From the NCBI GenBank assembly GCA_002898255.1, contig BEIE01000001.1, positions 62,001-126,000 on the forward strand: a DNA stretch of 64,000 nt. The letters are read 5' to 3'. The notes below the pieces were generated by a model. It ran no database searches and was not told the DNA's origin. It saw only the letters and a program-made list of their open reading frames with translations. A program made the translations under genes and the position numbers. This stretch comes from a bacterium HR28 (GTDB lineage: Bacteria > Chloroflexota > Chloroflexia > Thermomicrobiales > Thermomicrobiaceae). This document shows positions 47,456-64,000 of this stretch, piece after piece. Each line of letters starts with the position of its first letter. The stretch's first letter is position 1.

Positions 47456-48797
47456 TCACCGGTGTTTTCTCGCCCCCATTCCAGAAGCGCTGAATGACTC
47501 AGGAGACCGGTGCTGCGCCCAACAACGCCAGGCGCATCAAGGGTGACTCTCCGGCGGGGGCTTCACCAACGACGTGCAGCCAACTAGCCAGCGCGACGAC
47601 GACCGATTTCTTCGCCGGCCTCTCACACCGCGCGGTTACCAGTGGCGATAAGAGCCACCCGGTCTCCTGCACAGCATCCTCAGACAGGACCTTCTCTCAG
47701 CAGCGCTCAAACGAGTAGCCGGAGTAACTGTGAGGCAGCCCCACCAGAGCTGCGAAGCTGTCGGAGCGCTGCGGTTGTGAACTCGTCCACGAGCAGCTCC
47801 GGTTGGGCGCAGTATCTCAGGGTCGGGCATTCCGGTGCGTGGATAACCATCCCCTGACCGGTTTTCACCGCATCCTGACCATAGACTATTGTTCGCTAGC
47901 TGGGCAACAGTCGTCGCGATGCCACTGCCTCGGGGTGGCGTTGCGGACACTGCGCTAGGGATACTTCGGACAGAGCTTACCACCTCGCTGGAGTACGATC
48001 TCGTCAGGGCGGATGCCCGTAAACGCCGCCACCGAGTGGCCGAGCGCCGGCGGCGGAGCTCCGAGGACTGGAGCATGTCGCAATCCTCGTTGTCGTCCCG
48101 ATTGATCTGGTGGGAAACGTCTTGACCCGCTCGACGGCCTTCTTACCGACCGAGTCGTCTTCTGCACGCTCGCGGCTGTGCGTCGTGCTCCACCCGTGGC
48201 GAGCACCTTCAAGACCATGAGAACGCACTGCAGAATTGCCTCGCGGTGACGGGTTCAACGCTGACCGGAGTCAGACACCCGCAAAGGAGCCCGAGTTCTC
48301 AGCTCGTCGAATTCATCATACGTATCCGTTCTCTGCTGCGACAGCCAAGCGCAAGACGTTTGCAGCATCCCGAGATCTTCGAGTCGCACTGCTTCACCGA
48401 GGGAGCCCTCGGGGAAGCGTGAGATCCCCGGCGACTCTTCTTTTGCAAGAGCGTGTGGGAGACTGGCCCTTCCCACGTACCGCAAGTCGCATCCCCTGTA
48501 GAGGGGGAATTTCACTCTCCCGCCACTGACTGCTGGCGACAAACAGTTCCTGCGTCAAGGCAATGAATCGGCACTCTCCGACCCATCCGCGACATCCGGA
48601 GACACCCATTGTATCTGTTCTGTCAACTGAACAGCAGTTGACAACCGATCGAACAGTATTTGACTGCGAGTCGGTTGCCGAGACACCACATACTCAGAAC
48701 ATCCGGTCAAGGACGGCAGGACGTCGATCACGGTGATCGGCTGCCGGGGCGGCCGTTACCGCGCGACAAGCACCGAAAAGTTCGAGAAGGGCAGACC
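47456..48797. other. Gene-poor stretch after the sulfur operon
   Basis: About 1.3 kb. Several short frames on both strands (for example minus 47636-48076) are Arg/Ser-rich, lack ribosome sites and show no family motif. The part near 47950-48250 could be an old pseudogene but I recognise nothing. An inverted repeat lies at 48621-48643. Confidence 0.5.
48621..48643. promoter_or_regulatory. Perfect 9-bp inverted repeat upstream of the giant phosphoesterase gene
   Basis: TGTCAACTG (48621-48629), 5-nt loop AACAG, CAGTTGACA (48635-48643). It lies about 150 nt upstream of the predicted start of the secreted phosphoesterase. It could be an operator or an RNA hairpin; no T-tract follows, so a terminator is unlikely. 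Confidence 0.5.
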
Positions 48798-51700
48798 GTG
48801 ATAAGAGGGCAAGACAGAGCAGTGCATCTCCCCTGGAAAGTGAGCTTCGCACGTTTCCTCATTGCTAGCGTGCTCGCTCTCAGTATCGCCGGTGGTCAGC
48901 TTGGGCTCTCACCACATCCGGTGGCAGCTGTGAGCTGCGCAACAAGCGGTCCATCGTCTGGGCTCTACCTGGTCACCGTTTGCCTCACGCAACCGATCAG
49001 TGGTGCGCTCGTCTCAGGTGCGGTGACGGTGACTGCGAGCGCCACCACGAGTGGTGCAGCCCCACGCGTTCAACGCCTGATCTACACACTCGACGGAGCC
49101 TACTTGCTGACCGAGTTCTTTTCTCCCTACACGTTCCAACTCCCGACCACCCAGTGGGCTGACGGTCAGCACACGCTAGCCGTCAGCGCGCTCATGAACG
49201 ACGGGTTCACCAGTGCAGCGACGAGCATCACCCTCTTCTTCCAGAATGGTGTCAGCGGCTCGCCGCCTATCCCAACCGGCTTCCGCCCAACAACTGGCAC
49301 CACGCCACCCTCCGGCCAACCCTTCCGACTCGTCGCGGTCGGTGACGGCGGCGACGATGGGACACCGTCGGCACAAGTAGCCCAGCTCATCGGCAGCCTC
49401 TCCCCAAACCTCTTCCTTTATCTTGGTGACCTTTACGAGAAGGGGTCCTACAGCGAATTCCTGAACTACTACGGGCAGAGCGGCCAGCTTTTCGCAGCCT
49501 ACCGTTCGATCACCAACCCAGTTGTTGGAAATCACGAATATGACGGGACCGTCCCAGAAGGTTACCTTCGCTACTGGCAGAGCCCTCCGGACTACTACAG
49601 CGTCAATGCTGGGAGTTGGCACATCATCGCGCTCAACAGCACGAGTCAGTTCGGCCAGTATGTGCCGGGGACGCCTCAGTATGAGTGGCTTGTGCGTGAT
49701 CTCCGGGCGAACCGCGACGCCTGCACCATCGTCTACTTCCATCACCCGCGGTACAGTATCGGTCCACAAGGCGACACCCCAGCCTTGCAAGACATCTGGG
49801 AGCTTCTCCATCAGTTTGGGGTCGAACTCGTCCTTGTTGGGCATGACCACAACTACCAACGCTGGGTTCCACTCGACCATAATGGGCAGCCCGCCGCGAA
49901 CGGTATCGTTCAAGTCATCGCCGGCACCGGAGGTCACGGCATCCGCGCTTTCGTCCGGAGCGACTCACGTGTTGCTGCCGGGTTTGATCAGCCACCGTCG
50001 GCTTACGGCGTCCTCCTCGCCTCGCTCACTCCGACCCAGGCCGATCTCTCCTTTGTCGATCTCGCCGGGCAGGTACGTGACACTACGAGTGTCTCCTGCC
50101 ATGGGCCGAACGACACCACAGCACCGACAGCACCGACCGGCCTGCAGGCCTCGCTGATCTCGCCCCAACAGGTCGCTCTGCAGTGGAATGCGGCGACAGA
50201 CGACTACTCAGTCGCCACGTATGAGATCCTGCGCGATGGTGGAGTGGTCGCCACCGTACCAGGGAGTTCACGCTCCTTCGTCGACAGTAACCTCCAGCCC
50301 GACCGTACGTATACCTATCAGGTCACCGCACTGGATGCGATCGGCAACCGATCAGCTGCGAGCACACCGGTCTCGATCACGACTACCGTCACGCTCTTCG
50401 CCGACGACTTCGAATCGGGGACGCTAAGCCGCTGGAGCACGGTGAGTGGAATGACCATTACCACCATCTCGCCCCACGGTGGTCTTTACGCCGCGCGGGC
50501 ACTTTCCACGAGCGGCACGCCAGCGTACGCCGTCAGCTCGCTCTCAACGACCACGGCCGATACCGTCGTTGAACTCTGGTTTCACGTCGCTGCACGAGGG
50601 AAGAACGAGCAACTGACCTTGACGCGCTTCCTCACCGGCACGGACAGTCCGCTTGGCCTCGTGTTCATCACCACCAATGGCCAGCTTGCCTTCCGCAACG
50701 AAGTCACCGGAACCACCTCGACAACTGCTGTCACTGTATCCACGAGTGTGTGGCATCAACTGCGCGTTCGGTTCGTCACCGGCTCATCGGGGCGCGTGGA
50801 ACTCTGGTACGACGGCACACTTGTTTTGAGCACAACGCAAAACTTTGGCAGTGGAACTTTTGGACGCTTGCAGATCGGTGAGCACCTGACCAAGCGGAAG
50901 TTTGACGTCCGCTTTGACGATGTGCGCGTCACGCCACCACCGGCACCACCACCTGACACCACGCCGCCGGAGACCACGCTCACCAGCACGCCACCGGCTA
51001 CCACAAGCGAGACGACCGCCACCTTCGCCTTCTCTGCGAACGAATCCGCGACCTTCCAGTGCAGTCTCGACGGCGCGGCCGCCCAGCCGTGCACCAGCCC
51101 AACGACCTACACTTCTCTCACTGTCGGAACACATACCTTCAGCGTGACCGCTGTTGACGCTGCTGGAAACGCTGACCCGACGCCCGCAACCTACTCCTGG
51201 GACATTACCGCGCAGAGCGCACCCGACACCACGCTGGTCTCTACCCCACCTGCCCTCACGAACCAGTCCACCGCGACCTTCTCGTTCACCTCAACCGACA
51301 CTGCCGCGACGTTCGAGTGCCAACTCGACACGACGCCGGCGGTTGCCTGCACGAGTCCCTGGACGCTTACCGATCTCAGTGAAGGTGCACACACCTTCGC
51401 CGTCCGCGCCGTCAACGGCGAAGGTGAAGCCGATCCGACACCGGCGAGCTGGAGCTGGACGGTTGACCTCACCCCGCCGCCAGCGCCGACTGATGTCAGC
51501 GCCGTCGCGACGAGTGGCACACAAGTCACTGTCTCCTGGTCAAGCGTGAGCGATGCGAGCGGTATCAACGGATACGATGTCTACCGTGACGGGGCACTCT
51601 TCGCGCGCCTTGGCCCGGTGACGAGTGTCAACGACAGCACGGTGCAGCCAGCTACCACCTATCGCTATACCGTCCGTGCCCGCGACAACGCTGGCAATAT

Positions 51701-53654
51701 CTCACCAGACTCTGCAGTCGCGACCGTCACCACATCGACGCAGCGACTCTTTGAGGACGACTTTGAGACCGGTAATCTCACTCGCTGGTCAAGCGTGAAT
51801 GGGCTCACCGTCACGAACGAGTTACCCTACTCCGGTTCCTATGCGGCGCGTGCGTTATCTACAAGCGGTACTGCCGCCTACGCGCTCGGCACGCTCTCAC
51901 TCTCGACAAACGAACTCTTCTACCGCATCCGCTTCCAAGTGGTCACCCAGGGCGCCAACAACGTCTACCTTGAGAAGTGGCGAAGCGGGACGACCTCATT
52001 CGGTGGCATCTTCGTCACAAGCACGGGCCGACTCGCCTTCCGAAACGACGTGACCGGCCAAAGTCAGACGACCACGACGCAAGTGACGACCGGAGCATGG
52101 CACACCCTCGAGGTGCATCTCCGTACCGGAAGCAACGGGCTCATCGAGATCTGGTACGATGGCGTCCGCATTCTGCAAAGCTTCCAGAACTTCGGCACAA
52201 ACGCCCTCACGCAGATCCAGCTCGGCGAGAACAGCACAGGCCGCACCTTCGACGTCCGCTTCGACGAGGTTGTCGCTGATACCGGCCCAATCGATGCTCC
52301 TCAAGATACGACTGCACCGGAGACGACACTCACGAGCACTCCGCCAGCGACGACCAGTGACACCAGCGCTACCTTTGCCTTCACCGCCGACGAGCTCGCC
52401 ACCTTCCAGTGCAGTCTGGACGGCGCACCCACCCAGCCATGCACGAGCCCCACCACCTACACAGCACTGGCAGTGGGCCCACATACATTCAGCGTCGCCG
52501 CTACTGACGTCGCTGGCAACACCGACCCAACGCCCGCGACCTACACCTGGGAAATTACCGCCACCCCAGCAGCACCAGAGACGACGCTCACCTCTACTCC
52601 ACCCGCACTCACCAATAACCCGGATGCAACCTTCTCCTTCAGCTCGAACGATGCTACCGCGACCTTCCAGTGTCAGCTGGACGGCGCCGCCCCTGCTGCA
52701 TGCTCCAGCCCAACGACCCTCACCGGGCTTGCGGAAGGGAACCACACGTTTGCCGTCTGGGCGGTGAACACTGCCGGGACGGCCGATCCCACCCCCGCGA
52801 GCTGGTCGTGGACCATCGACCTGACGCCACCTGCCGCACCCACTGGCCTCACTGCAACGAGTGGGAACGGACGTGTCACCCTAAACTGGACAGCAGCAAG
52901 CGACGCCAATGGGCTTGCAGGCTACGATGTGTTCCGAAATGGGACTCTGCTCACCTCGCTCGGGGAGACAACAACCTATACCGACACCACTGTGCAACCG
53001 AACACGACGTATGAATATCGTGTCGTTGCGCGTGACCGAGCAGGCAACGCTTCCCCACCCAGCGACCCGGCCACGATCGCCACAGGATCTTTTGTCCTCT
53101 TCGCTGATGACTTCGAGTCCGGTACGCTGAGCGCCTGGACGACGGTAAGCGGGCTGACCATAACGACCAGTTCTCCCTACTCGGGGAGCTATGCCGCTCA
53201 AGCGCTCTCGACGAGCGGCACCGCTGCCTATGCGCTCACGACCCTCTCCAGCTCGGCGAATGAACTCTTTGTTCGCGTGCGCTTCTTCGTCGCCTCACAA
53301 GGCGCGAACACTGTCTACTTGGTCAAGCTACGCACCTCTACCGGTGGGTCGCTCGGCGGAGTCTACATCTCCAGTACCGGACGACTTGGCTTCCGTAACG
53401 ACGTCGCTGGCCAGAGCACCACGACTACCACAGCCGTCACACCAGGAAGTTGGCATACGCTTGGAGTGCGCATCGTGGTGGGCACGAGCGGCGTCGTAGA
53501 ACTGTCCTACGACGGCACGTTGATCGCCACCATCAGTGGAAACCTTGGGACCACGGCGATCGGGCGCTTCCAACTCGGCGAGAACAGCACAGGCCGAACC
53601 TTCGACGTCCGCTTCGACGAGGTTGTCGTCGATACACAGCCGATTGCAGGCTGA
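48798..53654 (+). CDS. Giant secreted modular metallophosphoesterase
   Basis: 1618 aa, exported. Order by position: signal peptide (hydrophobic run to ~48940), an Ig-like module (~48990-49250), a calcineurin-like metallophosphoesterase domain (~49325-50105) with metal motifs AVGDGGDDG, YLGDLYE, VGNHEYD, FHHPRY and GHDHNYQR, then FN3, a laminin-G-like jelly roll (LFADDFESGTLSRW), two Ig-like modules, FN3, laminin-G, two Ig-like, FN3, laminin-G. The GNHE/GHDHNYQR pattern is close to purple acid phosphatase/phytase-type enzymes. GTG 48798 with GAGAAGGG is chosen over TTG 48660, which would put a 60-residue charged leader before the signal peptide. Likely cell-surface or extracellular phosphate release. 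Confidence 0.85.
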   Translation: MIRGQDRAVHLPWKVSFARFLIASVLALSIAGGQLGLSPHPVAAVSCATSGPSSGLYLVTVCLTQPISGALVSGAVTVTASATTSGAAPRVQRLIYTLDGAYLLTEFFSPYTFQLPTTQWADGQHTLAVSALMNDGFTSAATSITLFFQNGVSGSPPIPTGFRPTTGTTPPSGQPFRLVAVGDGGDDGTPSAQVAQLIGSLSPNLFLYLGDLYEKGSYSEFLNYYGQSGQLFAAYRSITNPVVGNHEYDGTVPEGYLRYWQSPPDYYSVNAGSWHIIALNSTSQFGQYVPGTPQYEWLVRDLRANRDACTIVYFHHPRYSIGPQGDTPALQDIWELLHQFGVELVLVGHDHNYQRWVPLDHNGQPAANGIVQVIAGTGGHGIRAFVRSDSRVAAGFDQPPSAYGVLLASLTPTQADLSFVDLAGQVRDTTSVSCHGPNDTTAPTAPTGLQASLISPQQVALQWNAATDDYSVATYEILRDGGVVATVPGSSRSFVDSNLQPDRTYTYQVTALDAIGNRSAASTPVSITTTVTLFADDFESGTLSRWSTVSGMTITTISPHGGLYAARALSTSGTPAYAVSSLSTTTADTVVELWFHVAARGKNEQLTLTRFLTGTDSPLGLVFITTNGQLAFRNEVTGTTSTTAVTVSTSVWHQLRVRFVTGSSGRVELWYDGTLVLSTTQNFGSGTFGRLQIGEHLTKRKFDVRFDDVRVTPPPAPPPDTTPPETTLTSTPPATTSETTATFAFSANESATFQCSLDGAAAQPCTSPTTYTSLTVGTHTFSVTAVDAAGNADPTPATYSWDITAQSAPDTTLVSTPPALTNQSTATFSFTSTDTAATFECQLDTTPAVACTSPWTLTDLSEGAHTFAVRAVNGEGEADPTPASWSWTVDLTPPPAPTDVSAVATSGTQVTVSWSSVSDASGINGYDVYRDGALFARLGPVTSVNDSTVQPATTYRYTVRARDNAGNISPDSAVATVTTSTQRLFEDDFETGNLTRWSSVNGLTVTNELPYSGSYAARALSTSGTAAYALGTLSLSTNELFYRIRFQVVTQGANNVYLEKWRSGTTSFGGIFVTSTGRLAFRNDVTGQSQTTTTQVTTGAWHTLEVHLRTGSNGLIEIWYDGVRILQSFQNFGTNALTQIQLGENSTGRTFDVRFDEVVADTGPIDAPQDTTAPETTLTSTPPATTSDTSATFAFTADELATFQCSLDGAPTQPCTSPTTYTALAVGPHTFSVAATDVAGNTDPTPATYTWEITATPAAPETTLTSTPPALTNNPDATFSFSSNDATATFQCQLDGAAPAACSSPTTLTGLAEGNHTFAVWAVNTAGTADPTPASWSWTIDLTPPAAPTGLTATSGNGRVTLNWTAASDANGLAGYDVFRNGTLLTSLGETTTYTDTTVQPNTTYEYRVVARDRAGNASPPSDPATIATGSFVLFADDFESGTLSAWTTVSGLTITTSSPYSGSYAAQALSTSGTAAYALTTLSSSANELFVRVRFFVASQGANTVYLVKLRTSTGGSLGGVYISSTGRLGFRNDVAGQSTTTTTAVTPGSWHTLGVRIVVGTSGVVELSYDGTLIATISGNLGTTAIGRFQLGENSTGRTFDVRFDEVVVDTQPIAG
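50110..53651 (+). repeat. Repeated FN3 / laminin-G-like / Ig-like modules within the phosphoesterase gene
   Basis: Three copies of a unit of FN3 plus laminin-G-like domain, linked by pairs of Ig-like modules with the TLTSTPPATTS-type start and a paired-Cys core (FQCSLDG...QPCTSP). Near-identical DNA recurs at the ends of laminin-G copies 2 and 3 (around 52225 and 53578, product GENSTGRTFDVRFDEVV), indicating recent duplication. Confidence 0.8.
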
Positions 53655-56025: not shown

Positions 56026-56064
56026 CCATTGTCCGAGATCCGAGGAGCATCAGCAGGAACTCGC

Positions 56065-56472
56065 ATGGCACAGCGCGCCGCAGACTGGCTCAAACAAGCA
56101 CAACGCGACCTCGCGCTTGCCGAGCAGGCACGCGCGACTGGGTGGCATGAGTGGGCCTGCTTTGCCGCTCACCAAGCTGCAGACACAGCGGCGAAAGCAC
56201 TCTATCAGCATCTTGGTCGCCTTGGTTGGGGTCACGTGGTCGCACGCCTTTTACAGGAACTCCCGGAGGAACTCCGGCTGCCACCAGAGTTGATTGAGGA
56301 GGCACACGAACTGGATACGTACTACATCCCAACTCGCTATCCGGACAGCCACGCAGCCGGTGCCCCCTTTGAGCATTATTCGGCACGACAGAGTGAGCGA
56401 GCAGTGGACTATGCCCGTGCCATCATTACCTTCGTTCGCCATCACTTGGCCGAACCGTCAGACGGTCGATGA
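56065..56472 (+). CDS. HEPN-domain protein
   Basis: 135 aa all-helical. WLKQAQRDLALAEQARATGWHEWACFAAHQAADTAAKALYQHLG is the classic first part of the HEPN fold; YYIPTRYPDSHA holds the RX4H motif of HEPN ribonucleases. Partnered with an overlapping MNT nucleotidyltransferase, the pair resembles HepT/MntA toxin-antitoxin or stress modules; whether the HEPN is a nuclease toxin is not certain, since the Tyr that MntA adenylylates in well-studied pairs is not seen at the same spot. Confidence 0.82.
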   Translation: MAQRAADWLKQAQRDLALAEQARATGWHEWACFAAHQAADTAAKALYQHLGRLGWGHVVARLLQELPEELRLPPELIEEAHELDTYYIPTRYPDSHAAGAPFEHYSARQSERAVDYARAIITFVRHHLAEPSDGR

Positions 56473-56809
56473 GGCCGTACGGCGCTGGGCAGCAGAGTTG
56501 GTGCGGAAGCACCCGGTACCGCGCATCCTTGCGATCGGCTATTTTGGCTCGTACGCCCGCGGCGATTGGGGCTTCGGCAGTGACGTTGACCTCCTTGTCA
56601 TCGTTGAGGACGATCCAACACCCTTCATCGAGCGCGCAGTTCGCTACCAGACGCTTTCACTGCCCGTCCCTGCAGATCTTTTTGTCTATACACGGGACGA
56701 ATGGCAGGCAATTCAAGAACAACCCTCCGGCCGCCACATTGCCCGCGAGGTCGTCTGGGTTTGGCCAGCAGGTAATGGGGGTTCAATTCAAACATCACCT
56801 GCAACCTAA
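56411..56809 (+). CDS. MNT-type nucleotidyltransferase
   Basis: 132 aa. Signature GYFGSYARGDWGFGSDVDLLVIVED is the minimal-nucleotidyltransferase core with the paired Asp metal ligands (SDVDLL) and a third acidic residue in DLFVYTRDEW. Candidate antitoxin partner of the HEPN protein. The start is uncertain: ATG 56411 and GTG 56417 both overlap the HEPN gene by about 60 nt. Confidence 0.78.
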   Translation: MPVPSLPSFAITWPNRQTVDEAVRRWAAELVRKHPVPRILAIGYFGSYARGDWGFGSDVDLLVIVEDDPTPFIERAVRYQTLSLPVPADLFVYTRDEWQAIQEQPSGRHIAREVVWVWPAGNGGSIQTSPAT

Positions 56810-58008
56810 GCGAGATGCTCATCAGCTATGCCACAACGTGGTGGCCGAAGCTCCCCTTAAAACGTATTCTTCCGTACCGCCCCTGTTCGGCACACTGTGC
56901 GACAGCGTTTCACCGGAATAAAGCAGCTCCGCTGGATCCGTGCCACGCCCTGTGTGGCCCGCGCACGACGGTGACGAAGACAGCTCGTGCCTGCGCCTCT
57001 GGGCGAGGAGCGCATGCCGGGCCGCCGTGTAGAGCGACCAGTCTCAAGCGTGACCACGGCTAGTCCTGACTCGAAGCGCAGCTCTGCGCCTACCTGAGCA
57101 CAGGGCTGTACCGGCAAGCGCCGCGGCAAGAGGAACAGCAGCTCGGCATAGAGGCTCCTGAGCAGGACGCTGCTGGGCAAGCACCATCTGCCGACAAACC
57201 GGATCAGCAGTGTTAACGCAACGCGATCGATGATGGACCGGCAGTCTTCCGTGTCGAGGCGGGGAAAGCACAGCGAGCCAAGGGCTGTCACCACGCTACA
57301 AGATGGTCCGGAAACGCGGCCCAAGCCCGACACCGTTTTCACCCTCATGATGCCGAACCGGGCGCCACCAGTAGGACAGCGTCACCGAGCAGTAGCCTTG
57401 AGCATCTGGCGCCATCCTCCGTTCCTGTCCCCCAGCGTAAGGGGGCGCTTTTGTTGTCTAACGCTTCATTCTGCTCCCTACTCTCACGACCGCAGAGAAA
57501 GTCTTCTGGCCGCTTTGCGCCCCTGGCGCTACGTTGGTGGTGCCTCTACCCGGCGGATAACGTTGCCCAGCTGGCCTTCAAACGTGCTCCTCCTCTCGGT
57601 CGATGACCATATAGACCTGGTGCCGTTCCTGGGTACCATCATTCACAGCGGGCTCGAACTTCTCGGATTGGCTTCTTGTGCCCCGGTCTATACTGCTTCA
57701 GATTGATTCTCCCCTTGAGTCCCACTGTCACGTCATCCGCCGCGACAATGTGACGGTTCTGAGAACCACACTGGGGGCACGAATGGATAAGCGGAAGAGA
57801 AAAACAAACCACATTGACAGCACTACACGGCCGCCTGTGGAACACTAGAGCAGCATTGACTTGTCACTACTCCGGATATTGCTTCCTCTCTCGGCAACTA
57901 TATCTCCGGGATCAAATAACCATCTACGCGCTCATTTTTCTCATCGACTGGCTAGAGTCGTAAGTCGTGACAATCTCTCTATACACTTGTCCTATGATGC
58001 CAGCAGTC
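56810..58008. other. Gene-poor stretch between the HEPN/MNT pair and the helicase cassette
   Basis: About 1.2 kb. Unsupported frames run on both strands (minus 56857-57348 and plus 57230-57706 are the longest). A CCCCC/GGGGG hairpin followed by TTTTG at 57429-57453 could be a weak terminator. A minus-strand segment near 57790 reads CPQCGSQN, zinc-ribbon-like, but the frame around it is short. Possibly decayed mobile or accessory DNA. Confidence 0.45.
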
Positions 58009-60141
58009 TTATTCCATGCTCTCAGCCAGCTCGCGTAAGAGCCGCGCACTCGTCTCGAGATCGAGCATCGACAGCACTTCTTCTCGCTGAAGTGTCTCAG
58101 GCAGATGGCGGAACATCGGCGGCAGCGGGAGATTCGCGACGTAGCGTCGCAATTCAGCCGTCACCAACCTGGCGAGATAGTCGGGCGTACACTTCGTCAG
58201 TGTGTTGAGTCGAGGTGGATCCGCGCACCACACCCGCCAGGCATCGTGGCGGATCACGCACGTTCCCTGCGCTCGGAGCCAGTGGGACAGTAGCAGATTG
58301 GCAACCGTACCGGCAAAGGTGTAGATAACCCAGTGTCCGCGGGGCTCCTTCGCTATGACCTGTCTGGCAGCCAATCGCGGCTGCATGGTGGTTCGCCACT
58401 CCTGCAAGCGTCTCCTGGCCTGTCTGGTGTACCGAATCGGGAGCCTGGCTAGCTCTGCGTCTGGCATCGTGAGCACCTCCGCGATCTCGCGCGCGACACG
58501 AGCCGGGGTGGGCTCAGCCGGGGAACGATACTGGGCAAGCTCAGCCTCAGACGTTACCAGGTCGAGTACTCGAACGTTCTGCGACTCAACGCTGAGCACG
58601 AGCCGCGGCTGTCCCGCGACCAGCACAACATCGCCTGCCCGAAGCTGCCACGAGTATTGCCTCGGAATTTCAGCGATGGGGATGAGCCGGCCGGCTCCCT
58701 CTCGAAGCACCACGGCCTCGGCTTGTTCCGGGATGTTTCCCCAGAACATGCCGAGTGCCTGCCATGTGTGGAACTTGTCGGTCGGCCGCCAGAGATCGTG
58801 CCGCGGAACACGCTCGAGTACCTTTGCGTCTACCAGTTTATCTAGGACGGATGCCAGTGTAGCGGTTGTAGCGAACTCCGGCGCGCGTGCCACAACGCGT
58901 TGGAAGCCATCGGGCGCCACCATACCCCAGTGACAGCAGAGTGCGAGAAGTTGCTGCGCCAGCACGGAGTAGTAGCGTGGAAGGACACGTGTTTCTAACT
59001 CCGACTTCACCGCACAACTTGTCAAGGCTACGAAGGTGAGCAGATGACTGTCTGGATCCGCATCCCCACCCGACGGGTAGTACGAAGGGCACGCAGCGTA
59101 GACGATGCTGGTGTCCGTGCGACGGTTACCGCGCCCGAGTCGCTGCAAGAAGCTTGTAACGGTGTTCGGGGCACCCCACATAGCAACGGCGTCGATGTCG
59201 CCGATGTCGATGCCCAACTCCAGAGTGCTGGTAGCAATGCAGACCGCTCGCGGTCGCTCGCGAAACGCGCGTTCGACCTCCTCACGGTAAGCACGGTGCA
59301 GGGAGGAGTAGTGCAGGAAAACCGGGACATGCTTGATGCGTTCGCCTAGCTTCCAACGAAGCCAGTCGCATTGGACGCGCGTGTTGGCGAATACCAACAC
59401 CTTTCGGCGATCCTCTAAGATCGCGGTGAGCCAGGCAGCTGCGGCATCCGCTAGCCCGTTAACCGAGTCCGCCATGACCGGCTCTAAGCGGATATCGAGC
59501 GCTCGTGTGCCGGGTACACTCACCACCTCGAGCGGCGCGTCACTACCGCGAAAGAACTCGGCAACCAATTCTGGCTCTCCGACCGTGGCCGAGAGACAGA
59601 TCCGCTGGAGTGACCGACCGGTGTACTGCTTCAGTCGCTCAAGCAGACAGTAAAGCTGCAGACCACGCGGCGTGCCGTAGAACTGGTGCGTCTCGTCCAC
59701 GACGACTGCCTGAATCTCGCGGAGTCGGTCACGCACGTAGTCATGTTGGAGGGAGAGCATGACTTCCAATGACTCGGGAGTCGTGAGAATGATGGCCGGG
59801 ACCTCCCGCCCACGAATGGTGTTGCGCTCACCGTGCCGCACGGCGAGCCGTAAACCGCACGCATTGAGGCGTTCCGCGAGCCTCACTTCCAAGTCGTTGA
59901 CCAGCGCCCGCGTGGGGACGACATACAACGCAAAAGTAGTGCCTGGGTGATCGATCGCCATCTCCGCCAGCGGCGCGACGACAGCTTCCGTTTTACCGGA
60001 TCCAGTGGGTGCGATGAGTAGCAAGTTGCGCCGTTGGAGTACCAGAGGGATCGCCTGCTCCTGTACGGGGCGAAGTCTACCGAAGGATCCGAAGAAGGCA
60101 TCATAGACGCGCGGCAACCGCGCTCGCCAACCCACGGTCAT
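58009..60141 (-). CDS. Lhr/BrxHI-like DEAD-box helicase
   Basis: 710 aa SF2 helicase. Q-motif-like RPVQEQAIPL, motif I APTGSGKTE (44-52), TTPESLEVML, motif II VVVDETHQFYG, III LSATVGEPE, then ATSTLELGIDIGDIDAVAMWG and motif VI QRLGRGNRRTD. C-terminal part (~400 aa) has winged-helix and beta-barrel features of Lhr-type core helicases (HWVIYTFAGTVANLLLSHWL). Shorter than full Lhr. The combination with DUF2791 ATPases in the two genes upstream is the same pair type as BrxHI-BrxD of BREX systems, though no other BREX gene is in view. Starts 7 nt after the previous stop; last gene of the leftward operon. Confidence 0.85.
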   Translation of the reverse strand: MTVGWRARLPRVYDAFFGSFGRLRPVQEQAIPLVLQRRNLLLIAPTGSGKTEAVVAPLAEMAIDHPGTTFALYVVPTRALVNDLEVRLAERLNACGLRLAVRHGERNTIRGREVPAIILTTPESLEVMLSLQHDYVRDRLREIQAVVVDETHQFYGTPRGLQLYCLLERLKQYTGRSLQRICLSATVGEPELVAEFFRGSDAPLEVVSVPGTRALDIRLEPVMADSVNGLADAAAAWLTAILEDRRKVLVFANTRVQCDWLRWKLGERIKHVPVFLHYSSLHRAYREEVERAFRERPRAVCIATSTLELGIDIGDIDAVAMWGAPNTVTSFLQRLGRGNRRTDTSIVYAACPSYYPSGGDADPDSHLLTFVALTSCAVKSELETRVLPRYYSVLAQQLLALCCHWGMVAPDGFQRVVARAPEFATTATLASVLDKLVDAKVLERVPRHDLWRPTDKFHTWQALGMFWGNIPEQAEAVVLREGAGRLIPIAEIPRQYSWQLRAGDVVLVAGQPRLVLSVESQNVRVLDLVTSEAELAQYRSPAEPTPARVAREIAEVLTMPDAELARLPIRYTRQARRRLQEWRTTMQPRLAARQVIAKEPRGHWVIYTFAGTVANLLLSHWLRAQGTCVIRHDAWRVWCADPPRLNTLTKCTPDYLARLVTAELRRYVANLPLPPMFRHLPETLQREEVLSMLDLETSARLLRELAESME

Positions 60142-60148
60142 AGTCGTC

Positions 60149-61321
60149 CTACGGTCTCACTCGCCGCACTTGAGACGCGTGCACCTGCACGCGTATTGCT
60201 ATTCGTCCCTCGACAACGACGTAAAGCCGCTCACCGTTAATCGACTGGATACGGCCGTTCCAGCCTCTAAAGTGGCCACCCAGAATTTCGACCCAGTCAC
60301 CGACCTGTAGTTTTGGTCGCGCCGGCTGCGGCGGCCGTGTGGAGGCACGTGGCAGGGGATTCGGTGTCTGTTCAGGCGGAAGAACCTTTGTCGCGGATGC
60401 CACCGGGATGGCGCGCTGCAGTACTGTCGGATGCTTGCTTTGATGAAGCACCTCGAGGAGAGTGACGACAATCTGGACAAAAAAGCGCCAGCGACCGGAC
60501 GGCACAGAAAGTGCACGTTTCCAGGCACGCTCGGCCAGCTTCTCCGGACTGATGGGAGGTTGCCAGCCGAAAGCCACGCTGTGGAGTTGCCGAATCCGTT
60601 CGGCAACTAGTACTGCGATCGTTTCGTCGAGTGCTGGTGGGTGTATGCGGTGTCCGATCACAGGAGGGACATTTTGACTGTAAGTCATGGCGAACACCAG
60701 TACAACTGCGGGCTCCAATGCCAGGGCCAAAAGCTCCAGAACCTCGCGGAAAATTGGCTTCTGCCGGGTAGCCAGGAGCGTATAGTTTTCCAACTCGTCG
60801 AGACAGAGCACGAGGCCATGGAAACCCTGCGACCGCAGATCCTTAGCAAGATAGCCCAAGTACGTGGCGAGCCTCGCCCGCATGTCACGATCCGTGTTAT
60901 AGTCCGGCGGCCAGCTCAATAGGTGCTCCCAACGGCCGAGGTCGGTAGAAGGGTAGTTCCAACGGAGTTCCCACAGAACATGTCGCAGGAGCCAGGCCGG
61001 CTTATGTAGTCCAAGGTTCTGTTCGCGGTCGTGAGTGACGACTACCCACGCAAGCCCCCGAGCACGGGCCTCCTCGGCAAGAAATCGCAAAAGGTGACTC
61101 TTGCCTTCACCGTAGTCGCCCTGGACGACCAGTGGGCTTACCACTTGACCTGCTGCGGCCCGCTGGAGAACCGAGTCGACCGTATTCAAAACTCGATCCA
61201 TCCCGACGCTCAAAAAACGAACACCCTCGCGCGGTGGACGCCCAGCCTTCAGCGCCCAGACGATACGCCGGCAGGCGTGCTGGTCCGATAAGAGCGGGTC
61301 AAGCGATTTAGAAGTCGTCAT
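60149..61321 (-). CDS. BrxD-like DUF2791 P-loop ATPase with C-terminal KOW domain
   Basis: 390 aa. Walker A VVQGDYGEGKSHLLRFL (68-75 core), Walker B GLVLCLDELENYT, LVFAMTYSQNVPPVIGHRI: AAA+-like ATPase of the DUF2791/BrxD family. The last ~55 residues (336-390: VGDWVEILGGHFRGWNGRIQ...) read as a KOW/NusG-type beta barrel, an RNA/ribosome or polymerase-binding module, after a Pro-rich linker; this fusion is unusual for BrxD. ATG 61321 overlaps the upstream stop by 14 nt; the frame to 61387 is discarded. Confidence 0.8.
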   Translation of the reverse strand: MTTSKSLDPLLSDQHACRRIVWALKAGRPPREGVRFLSVGMDRVLNTVDSVLQRAAAGQVVSPLVVQGDYGEGKSHLLRFLAEEARARGLAWVVVTHDREQNLGLHKPAWLLRHVLWELRWNYPSTDLGRWEHLLSWPPDYNTDRDMRARLATYLGYLAKDLRSQGFHGLVLCLDELENYTLLATRQKPIFREVLELLALALEPAVVLVFAMTYSQNVPPVIGHRIHPPALDETIAVLVAERIRQLHSVAFGWQPPISPEKLAERAWKRALSVPSGRWRFFVQIVVTLLEVLHQSKHPTVLQRAIPVASATKVLPPEQTPNPLPRASTRPPQPARPKLQVGDWVEILGGHFRGWNGRIQSINGERLYVVVEGRIAIRVQVHASQVRRVRP

Positions 61322-62555
61322 GTGACACATCCCACGAAGCATAGCGCTCGCGCTCTGCTGCTCGGACAATACTAACAACATCTGCATCAGACGGTATCAG
61401 TTTTTCAAGTGGAACATCCAGATTTTGCTGAGCACTCTCAAGCACAATCACAGTGAGCTGTACGAGAAAGCGGGGTGTTGGCACCTCCACAGTGCGGCTC
61501 GCTCGCTCGGCAAAGCTCTTGAGAACCTCGTCGGGAACACGCTCAGCTGCATTCCAACTATGCGCCAATGCGTGGACGTCTCGGATGCGTTGCGCTAGTT
61601 CGAAGAGCTCATGCGGCTCCAGCGGCAAGCGGTTGAGGTTGACGGTGACCGAGCGGTAGTCACGGGGTGAAAATCCGGTAAGTAAGCCACCGATCCGCTG
61701 ATTGAGAGCCGGATAACTGGGAATACCGCTGCGGTTGTCCTGTAGCGCCTGCTCAGTAAGCGAACAGAGCATCACGAGGCTCGGAATGCTCTCCGTGTCG
61801 TCGATGAACTGGCGAAGGACCTCGTAGGAGCCATTTCGCACCGACGGGCGTTGGGTAAGAAGCAACTCAATCTCGTCTAGGAAGAGCACTAACCCACTGT
61901 AGCCGAGATAGCGAAGGAATACCACGAGCGAGCGGAGCATGGCACGCGAACTTGCGCGGTCAATACGCGCTCGGATCCCTGGAGGCCTGATCGGGTCTCC
62001 CTTAAACCACTGCAGGTAGGGTGTGAGCCCAGCTGTGCTTTCACGATAAGTCATCCACTCACGGAGATAACCACGCACCGCCTGGCGAAAGTCTGGATCC
62101 AGTCCCGTGAGATAGTCGAGGGCCACAAGTTCGTCGGTCAGCCGTTCTTCTGCCTCTACCCGAGCACACCAGCGCATCAGTATGTACTCAATACCAGATT
62201 TGTCATCAGTAGACCACCCAATAGTGAGGTTTTCCAGGAGCTTTCGCCAAACTGTATCGAAACGGTCGAGCCGAACGTCTTTGTCGAGAGCAACTTCGGA
62301 GACAACAAACGAGCGCTCGTACGCTAAGTGAGCCGTCACCCGGAGGAAATGTGTCTTGCCGCTCCCATAGTCACCGACGATGAAACGGACCGCGGACAAT
62401 TCGTCTTCCCTGGCAGCATCTAGGTACCATGCCATGCCGTCGATCCATCGTGAACGCCCGACATGCAGGTAGCGTGCAAGCGGAGGAGGTGGCGGCGTGC
62501 CGCGTTTCAAAGCCTCGATGATTTTTAATGCGTCTCTCCGGCTCAGCGCCTGCAT
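61308..62555 (-). CDS. BrxD-like DUF2791 P-loop ATPase
   Basis: 415 aa. Walker A FIVGDYGSGKTHFLRVT (61-68 core), Walker B SGLVLFLDEIELLLTQRP, and NQRIGGLLTGFSPRDYRSVTVNLNRLPL near the C-terminus. N-terminus ALSRRDALKIIEALKRGTPPPPPLARYLHVGRSRWIDGM is typical of the BREX ATP-binding (DUF2791) family. Paralogue of the neighbouring KOW-bearing ATPase. Begins 5 nt after the stop of the 299-aa protein gene, with AAGGTAAGAGG upstream. Confidence 0.83.
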   Translation of the reverse strand: MQALSRRDALKIIEALKRGTPPPPPLARYLHVGRSRWIDGMAWYLDAAREDELSAVRFIVGDYGSGKTHFLRVTAHLAYERSFVVSEVALDKDVRLDRFDTVWRKLLENLTIGWSTDDKSGIEYILMRWCARVEAEERLTDELVALDYLTGLDPDFRQAVRGYLREWMTYRESTAGLTPYLQWFKGDPIRPPGIRARIDRASSRAMLRSLVVFLRYLGYSGLVLFLDEIELLLTQRPSVRNGSYEVLRQFIDDTESIPSLVMLCSLTEQALQDNRSGIPSYPALNQRIGGLLTGFSPRDYRSVTVNLNRLPLEPHELFELAQRIRDVHALAHSWNAAERVPDEVLKSFAERASRTVEVPTPRFLVQLTVIVLESAQQNLDVPLEKLIPSDADVVSIVRAAERERYASWDVSHDDF

Positions 62556-62560
62556 ACCTC

Positions 62561-63460
62561 TTACCTTCCCTCGCTCGGCAGAAATGAGAGAAGCCCATAG
62601 TTCTGGCCAACGCGGGTACCGAAGTTCACGATGAACAAGCTCTCTTTGGCGTTACGAACAGGGTGGAGATGCAAGCGAAACTTATCGATCCGCGTGTGCC
62701 CTGACTCGAGCAACCTTCCCAGATCGACCGCGAACTCGTCGGGTGGATACGGGCGGAAGTGGCGAGGATCCACGCTGTGAAACGCTCTCTCTGACTGTCG
62801 ACTCATGACCAGGAACTTATGTACGGACAGGAGGGATACAGGTTCGCCGACCCGACCCGCGTGCCCGTGGGCAGTGAGCGCCAGTTCGTAGGCTTTGAAC
62901 AGGTCGACGAGGAATCGCTCAGGATCAAGAGGCCTGCCAAAGAGGCGCTGGATCTCGCCTCTCACAGCTTCTACTACGGTATCGACTGAGATGTCGCCTG
63001 TAAGCTGCCTTGATTGGAACGCTGTCCCCACTGTCGCACGGTACTTTCGATCGTCGATCCGCACGTGGATCACGTGGCGAATTCGATAGCCTTCGCTCAA
63101 GCGCCCTTCAAGAATTTCATCGGCCGGGAGTGCCTGACGGAATAGCTCTGTGTAGTGGGCAAGCTGCTCTCCAGCCAGACTCTCGGCCCAATCGCGTAGT
63201 CTTCTCACAGTCGCAGCCTGCTCCGGTGCTATCTTCGCAAGAATCTCGAGTCTGGCGAGGAGCGCGAACGGCCGCCGTTCGGCCTCGGGTAGAGTTTTGA
63301 GCACCTCTTCCCACTGCTGACGAGCGCTCCGAGCAGCTTGCTCCCGCTGCCGACACTCGCGGATCGCTTCCTGAACGAGCTTCTGAAGCGCACCTTTCAG
63401 GTCACCGTCGCTCTCACGACGAAGACTGTCCGCCGCATCATACTCTCGCAGGGTCACCAT
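62561..63460 (-). CDS. Unknown 299-aa protein heading the ATPase-helicase cassette
   Basis: 299 aa, no family recognised. Residues 20-115 are charged and helical, coiled-coil-like (LVQEAIRECRQREQAARSARQQWEEVL). The C-terminal two thirds look globular alpha/beta (YRIRHVIHVRIDDRKYRATVGTAF..., ...PERFLVDLFKAYELALTAHG, ...FIVNFGTRVGQNYGLLSFL). No catalytic nuclease, methylase or membrane motif is visible. Possible DNA-binding or adaptor subunit by analogy with first genes of such cassettes. Start ATG 63460 with GGAGGCGG. A weak TATAAC -10 lies at 63529-63524. Confidence 0.75.
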   Translation of the reverse strand: MVTLREYDAADSLRRESDGDLKGALQKLVQEAIRECRQREQAARSARQQWEEVLKTLPEAERRPFALLARLEILAKIAPEQAATVRRLRDWAESLAGEQLAHYTELFRQALPADEILEGRLSEGYRIRHVIHVRIDDRKYRATVGTAFQSRQLTGDISVDTVVEAVRGEIQRLFGRPLDPERFLVDLFKAYELALTAHGHAGRVGEPVSLLSVHKFLVMSRQSERAFHSVDPRHFRPYPPDEFAVDLGRLLESGHTRIDKFRLHLHPVRNAKESLFIVNFGTRVGQNYGLLSFLPSEGR

Positions 63461-64000
63461 CCGCCTCCGCAGCTTGACACCTAACGACTTCAGTTGCGGT
63501 AGTCATTTTTCGGCTCAGTTCGCGTTATAGGAAACGTGGACTGCTTACTTCACGGGTAGGCAAGCACAAAGTAGTAAAGGTCTCAAGAGGGAACGCCCAT
63601 GCATCTCTCCTCGGCGAGCAAGAGCCACAGGGAGCGACGGCCTATGTCGTGTACCATGCACCTGCTGAACCAGTAGTACGAATCTTTGTCGGTCATCGAC
63701 CGCTGACTCACCACCACTCACTTCATGCTCTAACCCGTCGCAGTTGAGACAGCGCTCGGAATAGAAGTCCAAGCCGCATGCCGATCGCCTCGCCCAGCCG
63801 CAACTCGCGGCCCGCGTTCGCCGGGAGGAAGCCCACTGTTGCCAAAGACCGCTGGCTCCAGTGGAATCTCAATAGCCGTTACCGTGGAGGACCCACCAGT
63901 GCCTGGCCGAGCACCACCGGGAGCGGCATGTCCTCCAGCGTGGCCGGCCGAGAGTGCGCTAGTTCGAGGCCGTTGCTCGCTGGGGCGGAAGCTGCCACTG
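63461..64000. other. Gene-poor right edge
   Basis: 540 bp with no supportable gene. Minus frame 63545-63772 (starts FYSERCLNCDG) and an open minus frame reaching the edge have no ribosome site and unnatural composition. Confidence 0.45.

Follow-up and report, generated by a model that had tools for sequence, protein, structure and literature searches.

The question raised by positions 58,009 to 63,460 of the window, by which we mean the whole analyzed stretch of 64,000 nucleotides, is whether the four tightly packed genes found there are what is left of a known phage-defence system or a system of their own. Two of the genes encode ATPases and one a helicase of kinds known from BREX; the fourth encodes a protein of 299 amino acids. 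The host genome is 3.1 Mb in size and of Thermomicrobiaceae type.

Gene content of the cassette

The cassette is encoded on the minus strand in the order P4 (62561..63460, 299 aa, P0004), D1 (61308..62555, 415 aa, P0003), D2 (60149..61387, 412 aa, P0002), and HEL (58009..60141, 710 aa, P0001), with gaps of 5, −14, and 7 nt. These four open reading frames, their positions, and the gaps were correctly given in an earlier reading made from the letters alone (hereafter, the sequence-only reading). The overlap of 14 nt is obtained when D2 begins at an internal ATG at 61321, which may be its true start.

Both ATPases had been called BrxD-like (DUF2791), and the profile check agreed, with matches to PF10923 for each. 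D1 is an ORC/Cdc6-type AAA+ ATPase of this family; its match to PF10923 (BrxC_BrxD) in the Pfam search spans the full length (6e-59), and its Walker A (GDYGSGKT, residues 61–68) and Walker B (FLDEIE) motifs are both intact. D2 is a second, divergent PF10923 ATPase whose match (2.9e-18) is confined to the N-terminal part. It also has intact Walker A (GDYGEGKS) and Walker B (CLDELE) motifs, and it carries a C-terminal KOW-like small barrel (residues 362–391) that scored slightly below the Pfam cut-off.

The description of HEL as an Lhr/BrxHI-like helicase held as well. It is an SF2 DEAD/DEAH helicase, Lhr/BrxHI/SngC-like, with BrxHI (5e-103) and SngC of Shango (1e-82, full length) as the top matches in the defence library, and its nearest relatives in the PDB are Lhr-type ATP-dependent DNA helicases. 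A fused nuclease domain was looked for in HEL and none was found.

P4, left unrecognized in the sequence-only reading, had no family match in Pfam, NCBIfam, or PADLOC. Its N-terminal half is predicted to be helical or coiled-coil and its C-terminal half to be alpha+beta. The C-terminal half has a conserved Y..EF..D, plus Y....F at the C-terminus, and residues L187, F243, and D246 were invariant in an alignment of 17 sequences. The AlphaFold model, made from two input sequences, was of low confidence (pLDDT 45). The PDB-sequence matches of P4 were to coiled-coil and designed helical proteins only, and we took them as a composition effect. Homology of P4 to SngA or TerB was ruled out, the hhalign probability against SngA being 0.05%. 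The viral_contigs set was scanned once with D1 (P0003) and once with the Aulosira P4, with no matches.

Distribution and the two forms of the cassette

P4 was present in three of 61 relatives, and 11 of the 158 genomes of the class were positive, a patchy distribution. A search with the P4 profile revealed distant copies across Chloroflexota. On contigs that extend far enough, two PF10923 ATPases come next in nearly all cases, and the order P4-D1-D2 was found at about 24 loci, independent or related. The gene-order check that the earlier reading had proposed showed that P4-D1-D2-HEL is conserved elsewhere. The arrangement is more than a product of chance: the four genes are a conserved unit that occurs in several phyla of bacteria, in some places next to phage-defence systems and in others alone. 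A description of this gene set was not found in the open-licence literature.

Two forms of the cassette occur. Type A, the form in the window, ends in an Lhr/BrxHI-like helicase. The full cassette with this helicase occurs in the window, at L008, L009, L020, L039, and L115, and in two plasmids, L022 (cyanobacterial) and L051 (Desulfomonile); at L114 and L116, the helicase is cut by contig ends. The plasmid search gave the cassette in Aulosira and Desulfomonile only. In the Aulosira plasmid (L022), it comes directly after a BREX type 2 set, which includes a BrxD and a BrxHI of its own, and in the 27-kb plasmid of Desulfomonile tiedjei (L051) it is alone. The cassettes at L039, L042–L044, L084, and L115 sit among ordinary genes.

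In type B, P4-D1-D2 are followed by a 190-aa protein and an SNF2 helicase (L042, L043, L044, L045, L084, L086, and L087). At L045 and L086, this helicase is fused to an Mrr nuclease, and at L040, an XPB/ResIII-like helicase is found in place of SNF2. The best PADLOC match of the type B helicase, including its Mrr-fused version, is ZorD; the locus differs from Zorya in that ZorA, ZorB, and ZorC were not found and the helicase comes after P4-D1-D2 and the 190-aa protein. One type B copy (L087) is located between GmrSD and PLD/helicase genes. Type B cassettes are apparently another undescribed defence-type operon.

The two forms also differ in their ATPases. At the type B loci checked, Walker A and the glutamate of Walker B have been lost from D1; in D2, Walker A and B are retained at all loci checked. 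This pattern, with the D2 motifs kept and the D1 Walker A lost in the SNF2 form, fits the expectation for an unequal ATPase pair. On our reading of the sequences, the small barrel of D2 is N-terminal in most Chloroflexales copies, C-terminal in Thermomicrobiaceae, and absent in the plasmid copies.

Association with BR (Hma) systems and decay around the window cassette

Two Thermomicrobiaceae loci, L008 and L009, have the same four genes in the same order, with 52–88% protein identity to the window. There the cassette is nested in a larger operon, with a DUF499 ATPase and DUF7680 upstream and a DUF1156 N6-methylase and a PLD-SNF2 helicase downstream. PADLOC names these genes HmaC (DUF499), HmaB (DUF1156 methylase), and PLD/Hma helicase, and the operon is the "BREX-related" (BR)/Hma restriction-like system (PMC12839542). 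It differs from the published BR types, which have only an Snf2 (Swi2/Snf2) helicase and lack BrxD/BrxHI-type genes (PMC12839542). DUF7680 is seemingly a regular member of this BR branch, substituting for DUF3780.

The flanks of the window cassette had been described as gene-poor, and we found decayed genes there instead. Upstream, a DUF7680 pseudogene on the minus strand (63607..64000, continuing to about 64060 past the window edge) shows five frameshifting gaps against the intact L008 gene, and beyond it, at about 64.07–65.04 kb, only a frameshifted C-terminal third of DUF499 is left. The DUF499 and DUF7680 remains together (about 63.6–65.0 kb) have 16 gaps over 1.24 kb, 11 of them frameshifting, at 68–71% DNA identity to L008. 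Downstream, the remnant of a 285-aa ORF (56932..57437, minus strand) matches L008:15274-15782 with 66% DNA identity; in L008, the intact ORF sits between the helicase and the DUF1156 methylase. The DUF1156 methylase and the PLD-SNF2 helicase are gone from the window locus and its vicinity, and are present in the loci of the relatives and on another contig, C3, of the same genome. Going by these remains, the window cassette is the survivor of a BR/Hma operon locus whose other genes decayed. The term stand-alone, first applied to it, is right for the window genome, but the cassette was formerly part of a BR (Hma) operon with DUF499 and DUF1156. What is left of that operon extends across the window edge, out of sight of the sequence-only reading.

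A tRNA-Leu gene lies upstream of the DUF499 end both in the window genome (L007:4494-4580, about 70.5 kb in window coordinates) and in the relative (L008:5436-5523), with different anticodons, which suggests that the locus was inserted at a tRNA site. Just downstream of the cassette, on the plus strand (56029-56809), a HEPN-domain protein (PF05168, 5e-29) overlaps a nucleotidyltransferase (PF01909), an HEPN-MNT toxin-antitoxin-type pair. A long ORF at 48660-53654, also on the plus strand, has fn3 and other Ig-like repeats with metallophosphatase and polysaccharide-lyase domain matches and encodes a large secreted protein.

Contig C3 carries an intact BR system that has no cassette (L052/L053, G000:C3:185000-214000), with DUF499 (L052:8663-11761), DUF7680, the DUF1156 methylase, and the PLD-SNF2 helicase; its intactness implies that the BR core does not need the cassette. 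The reverse dependence would hold if the cassette were an accessory effector or sensor arm of DUF499/DUF1156 BR (Hma) systems that requires the BR core and, in the window genome, is served in trans from C3. This would agree with the embedding of the L008 and L009 cassettes between DUF7680 and the DUF1156 methylase and with the retention of the cassette-free system on C3. However, the cassette also occurs without BR: no BR genes were present in the flanks read for the Desulfomonile plasmid, L039, and L115, the Aulosira cassette comes after BREX type 2, and the BR link is found in only three related Thermomicrobiaceae. We consider such an arm unlikely.

Proposed function

The reading we prefer, to which we give a good measure of confidence, is that the four genes form one functional module, probably an autonomous cassette for defence against invaders (phages or plasmids). 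It is based on the relatives, which are defence systems (Shango and BREX type 2), on the neighbors in defence operons, and on the patchy distribution. Shango blocks phages and protects Pseudomonas from several of them (PMC10250203).

In the mechanism that we propose, D1 and D2, anciently diverged ORC/Cdc6-like AAA+ proteins, would form a hetero-oligomer on DNA, and P4, as a sensor or adaptor, would join the ATPase complex to the helicase or to some feature of the target. The D1-D2 complex would load the SF2 helicase onto aberrant DNA or that of an invader, and the action of the helicase would block replication of the invader, with nucleases in trans or, in the sister form, with the fused Mrr nuclease. 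Two diverged ORC/Cdc6-like ATPases, one of them maybe catalytically dead, and an SF2 helicase that can be swapped are consistent with a hetero-oligomeric loader that serves a helicase as effector. That BrxD loads BrxHI as replicative helicase loaders do is a hypothesis in the literature (PMC12839542), and the twin ATPases (active/inactive or active/active, depending on the form) with their swappable helicase make it directly testable. Since stand-alone cassettes have no methylase, discrimination would probably be by the structure or state of the DNA and not by methylation.

A broader version of this proposal is more tentative, its chances falling somewhat short of even. The cassette would be an unnamed autonomous immune system in which a hetero-ORC pair, with one subunit that can lose its catalytic activity, loads one of several exchangeable SF2 helicases (Lhr-type, SNF2, SNF2-Mrr, XPB-like) on invader DNA, as a defensive counterpart of replication-origin licensing that can nest in BREX or BR operons.

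Lhr-family helicases have a role in DNA repair, and the cassette could instead be a DNA-repair or replication-restart operon, made of an Lhr-type helicase and its loader, and not a defence system. The Lhr-type PDB relatives of HEL and the presence of some copies among housekeeping genes would be in keeping with this. Several features are difficult to reconcile with it: the patchy distribution and carriage on plasmids, the position of cassettes in or next to restriction-type operons, the closest paralogues, which are those of Shango and BREX, and the exchange of the helicase for SNF2-Mrr. A repair operon is accordingly improbable, and defence remains our preferred reading.

Relation to BREX type 2 and Shango

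The sequence-only reading had left a choice between a reduced BREX relative and a distinct defence or DNA-processing system. In the cassette, a PF10923 ATPase is adjacent to a Ski2/Lhr-like SF2 helicase, the arrangement that characterizes the dyad superfamily. An ATPase tree of 52 sequences gave separate groups for D1 (84/87, a moderate support), D2 (98/96), SngB (100/100), and BrxD (100/98). The helicases of the cassettes formed one clade (99/98) in their tree, adjoining the SngC+BrxHI clade. The ATPases and the helicase are outside the SngB and SngC clades, and also outside those of BrxD and BrxHI, for which the trees contain only two or three references. As D1 and D2 each have their own group in the ATPase tree, the split between them predates the spread of the cassette. 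Because the enzyme clades are separate and P4 does not align with SngA, the cassette is, on these comparisons, a distinct third branch among the ATPase-helicase dyads, to be added beside BrxD-BrxHI (BREX type 2) and SngB-SngC (Shango).

The cassette shares with BREX type 2, to which the BrxD-BrxHI dyad belongs, a BrxD-like ORC/Cdc6 ATPase that adjoins a Ski2/Lhr-like helicase (PMC12839542). It differs in having an ATPase pair and in lacking PglX, PglY/BrxC, PglZ, and PglW. PglZ (PF08665) had no match in the whole genome, while control genomes gave matches. The check for a complete BREX set just outside the window found none within 22 kb past its edge, and neither a PglX methylase nor a PglY/BrxC ATPase was among the ORFs of those 22 kb or in the searched region; the sole DUF1156-type methylase of the genome is on another contig. 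The order of an N-terminal partner, a PF10923 ATPase, and an Lhr-like SF2 helicase is common to Shango and the cassette, and SngB and SngC are among the nearest sequence relatives of the cassette, a closer kinship that could not be seen in the sequence-only reading. Shango, however, has a single ATPase, and its SngA, a TerB-domain protein, is unrelated to P4. A genome search for SngA gave no match, and neither did its positive control.

The names that PADLOC and Pfam give to the enzymes (BrxD/SngB for the ATPases, BrxHI/SngC for the helicase), and the similar order of Shango (large protein, ATPase, helicase), could suggest that the cassette is a BREX (type 2) or Shango locus in reduced or degenerate form. 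This is very unlikely: the trees contradict it, as do the comparison of P4 with SngA, the genome-wide absence of PglZ, the presence of two ATPases against one BrxD or SngB, and Aulosira, where the cassette lies beside a BREX type 2 that possesses a BrxD-BrxHI dyad of its own. The distinct system is the part of the earlier choice that the separate clades, the lack of PglZ, and the conserved order support.

Within the Chloroflexota sample, the canonical loci with a single PF10923 ATPase that we read proved to be Shango. Shango-like SngB-SngC, mostly with SngA, occurs in Chloroflexota at L090, L091, L092, L093, and L094, and L093 has an unknown protein of 1342 aa instead of SngA. Another dyad variant occurs on a plasmid of Deinococcus psychrotolerans (L098:656-8070), where unknown proteins of 851 and 451 aa precede a BrxD-like ATPase and a BrxHI-like helicase, and part of a second copy comes after them. 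We ruled this locus out as a further instance of the cassette, as the 451-aa protein shows no similarity to P4.

Selection on the window cassette

The 5.45 kb of the window cassette have no internal frameshift; compared with L008, to which the DNA identity is 80–85%, there is a single 1-nt insertion, close to the stop of the helicase. The dN/dS against L008 was 0.11–0.21, and N/S was 135/229 on the window branch and 112/148 on the L008 branch (p = 0.14), so that relaxation was not seen. The window cassette is intact and under purifying selection. The kept frame, the dN/dS, and the lack of an excess of amino acid changes indicate that selection continued after the cassette lost its partner in cis. 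The wrecked state of the adjacent DUF499, DUF7680, and 285-aa genes might suggest that the cassette, too, is a functionless, decaying leftover, but the same intact frame, low dN/dS, and unraised N/S on the window branch make this hardly credible. In effect, nature has carried out a deletion experiment in the window genome: the BR genes around the cassette died and the cassette lived on. At another locus (L113:11161-14497), a copy of the cassette has lost D2 and has a broken helicase, which points to decay of the cassette as a unit as well.
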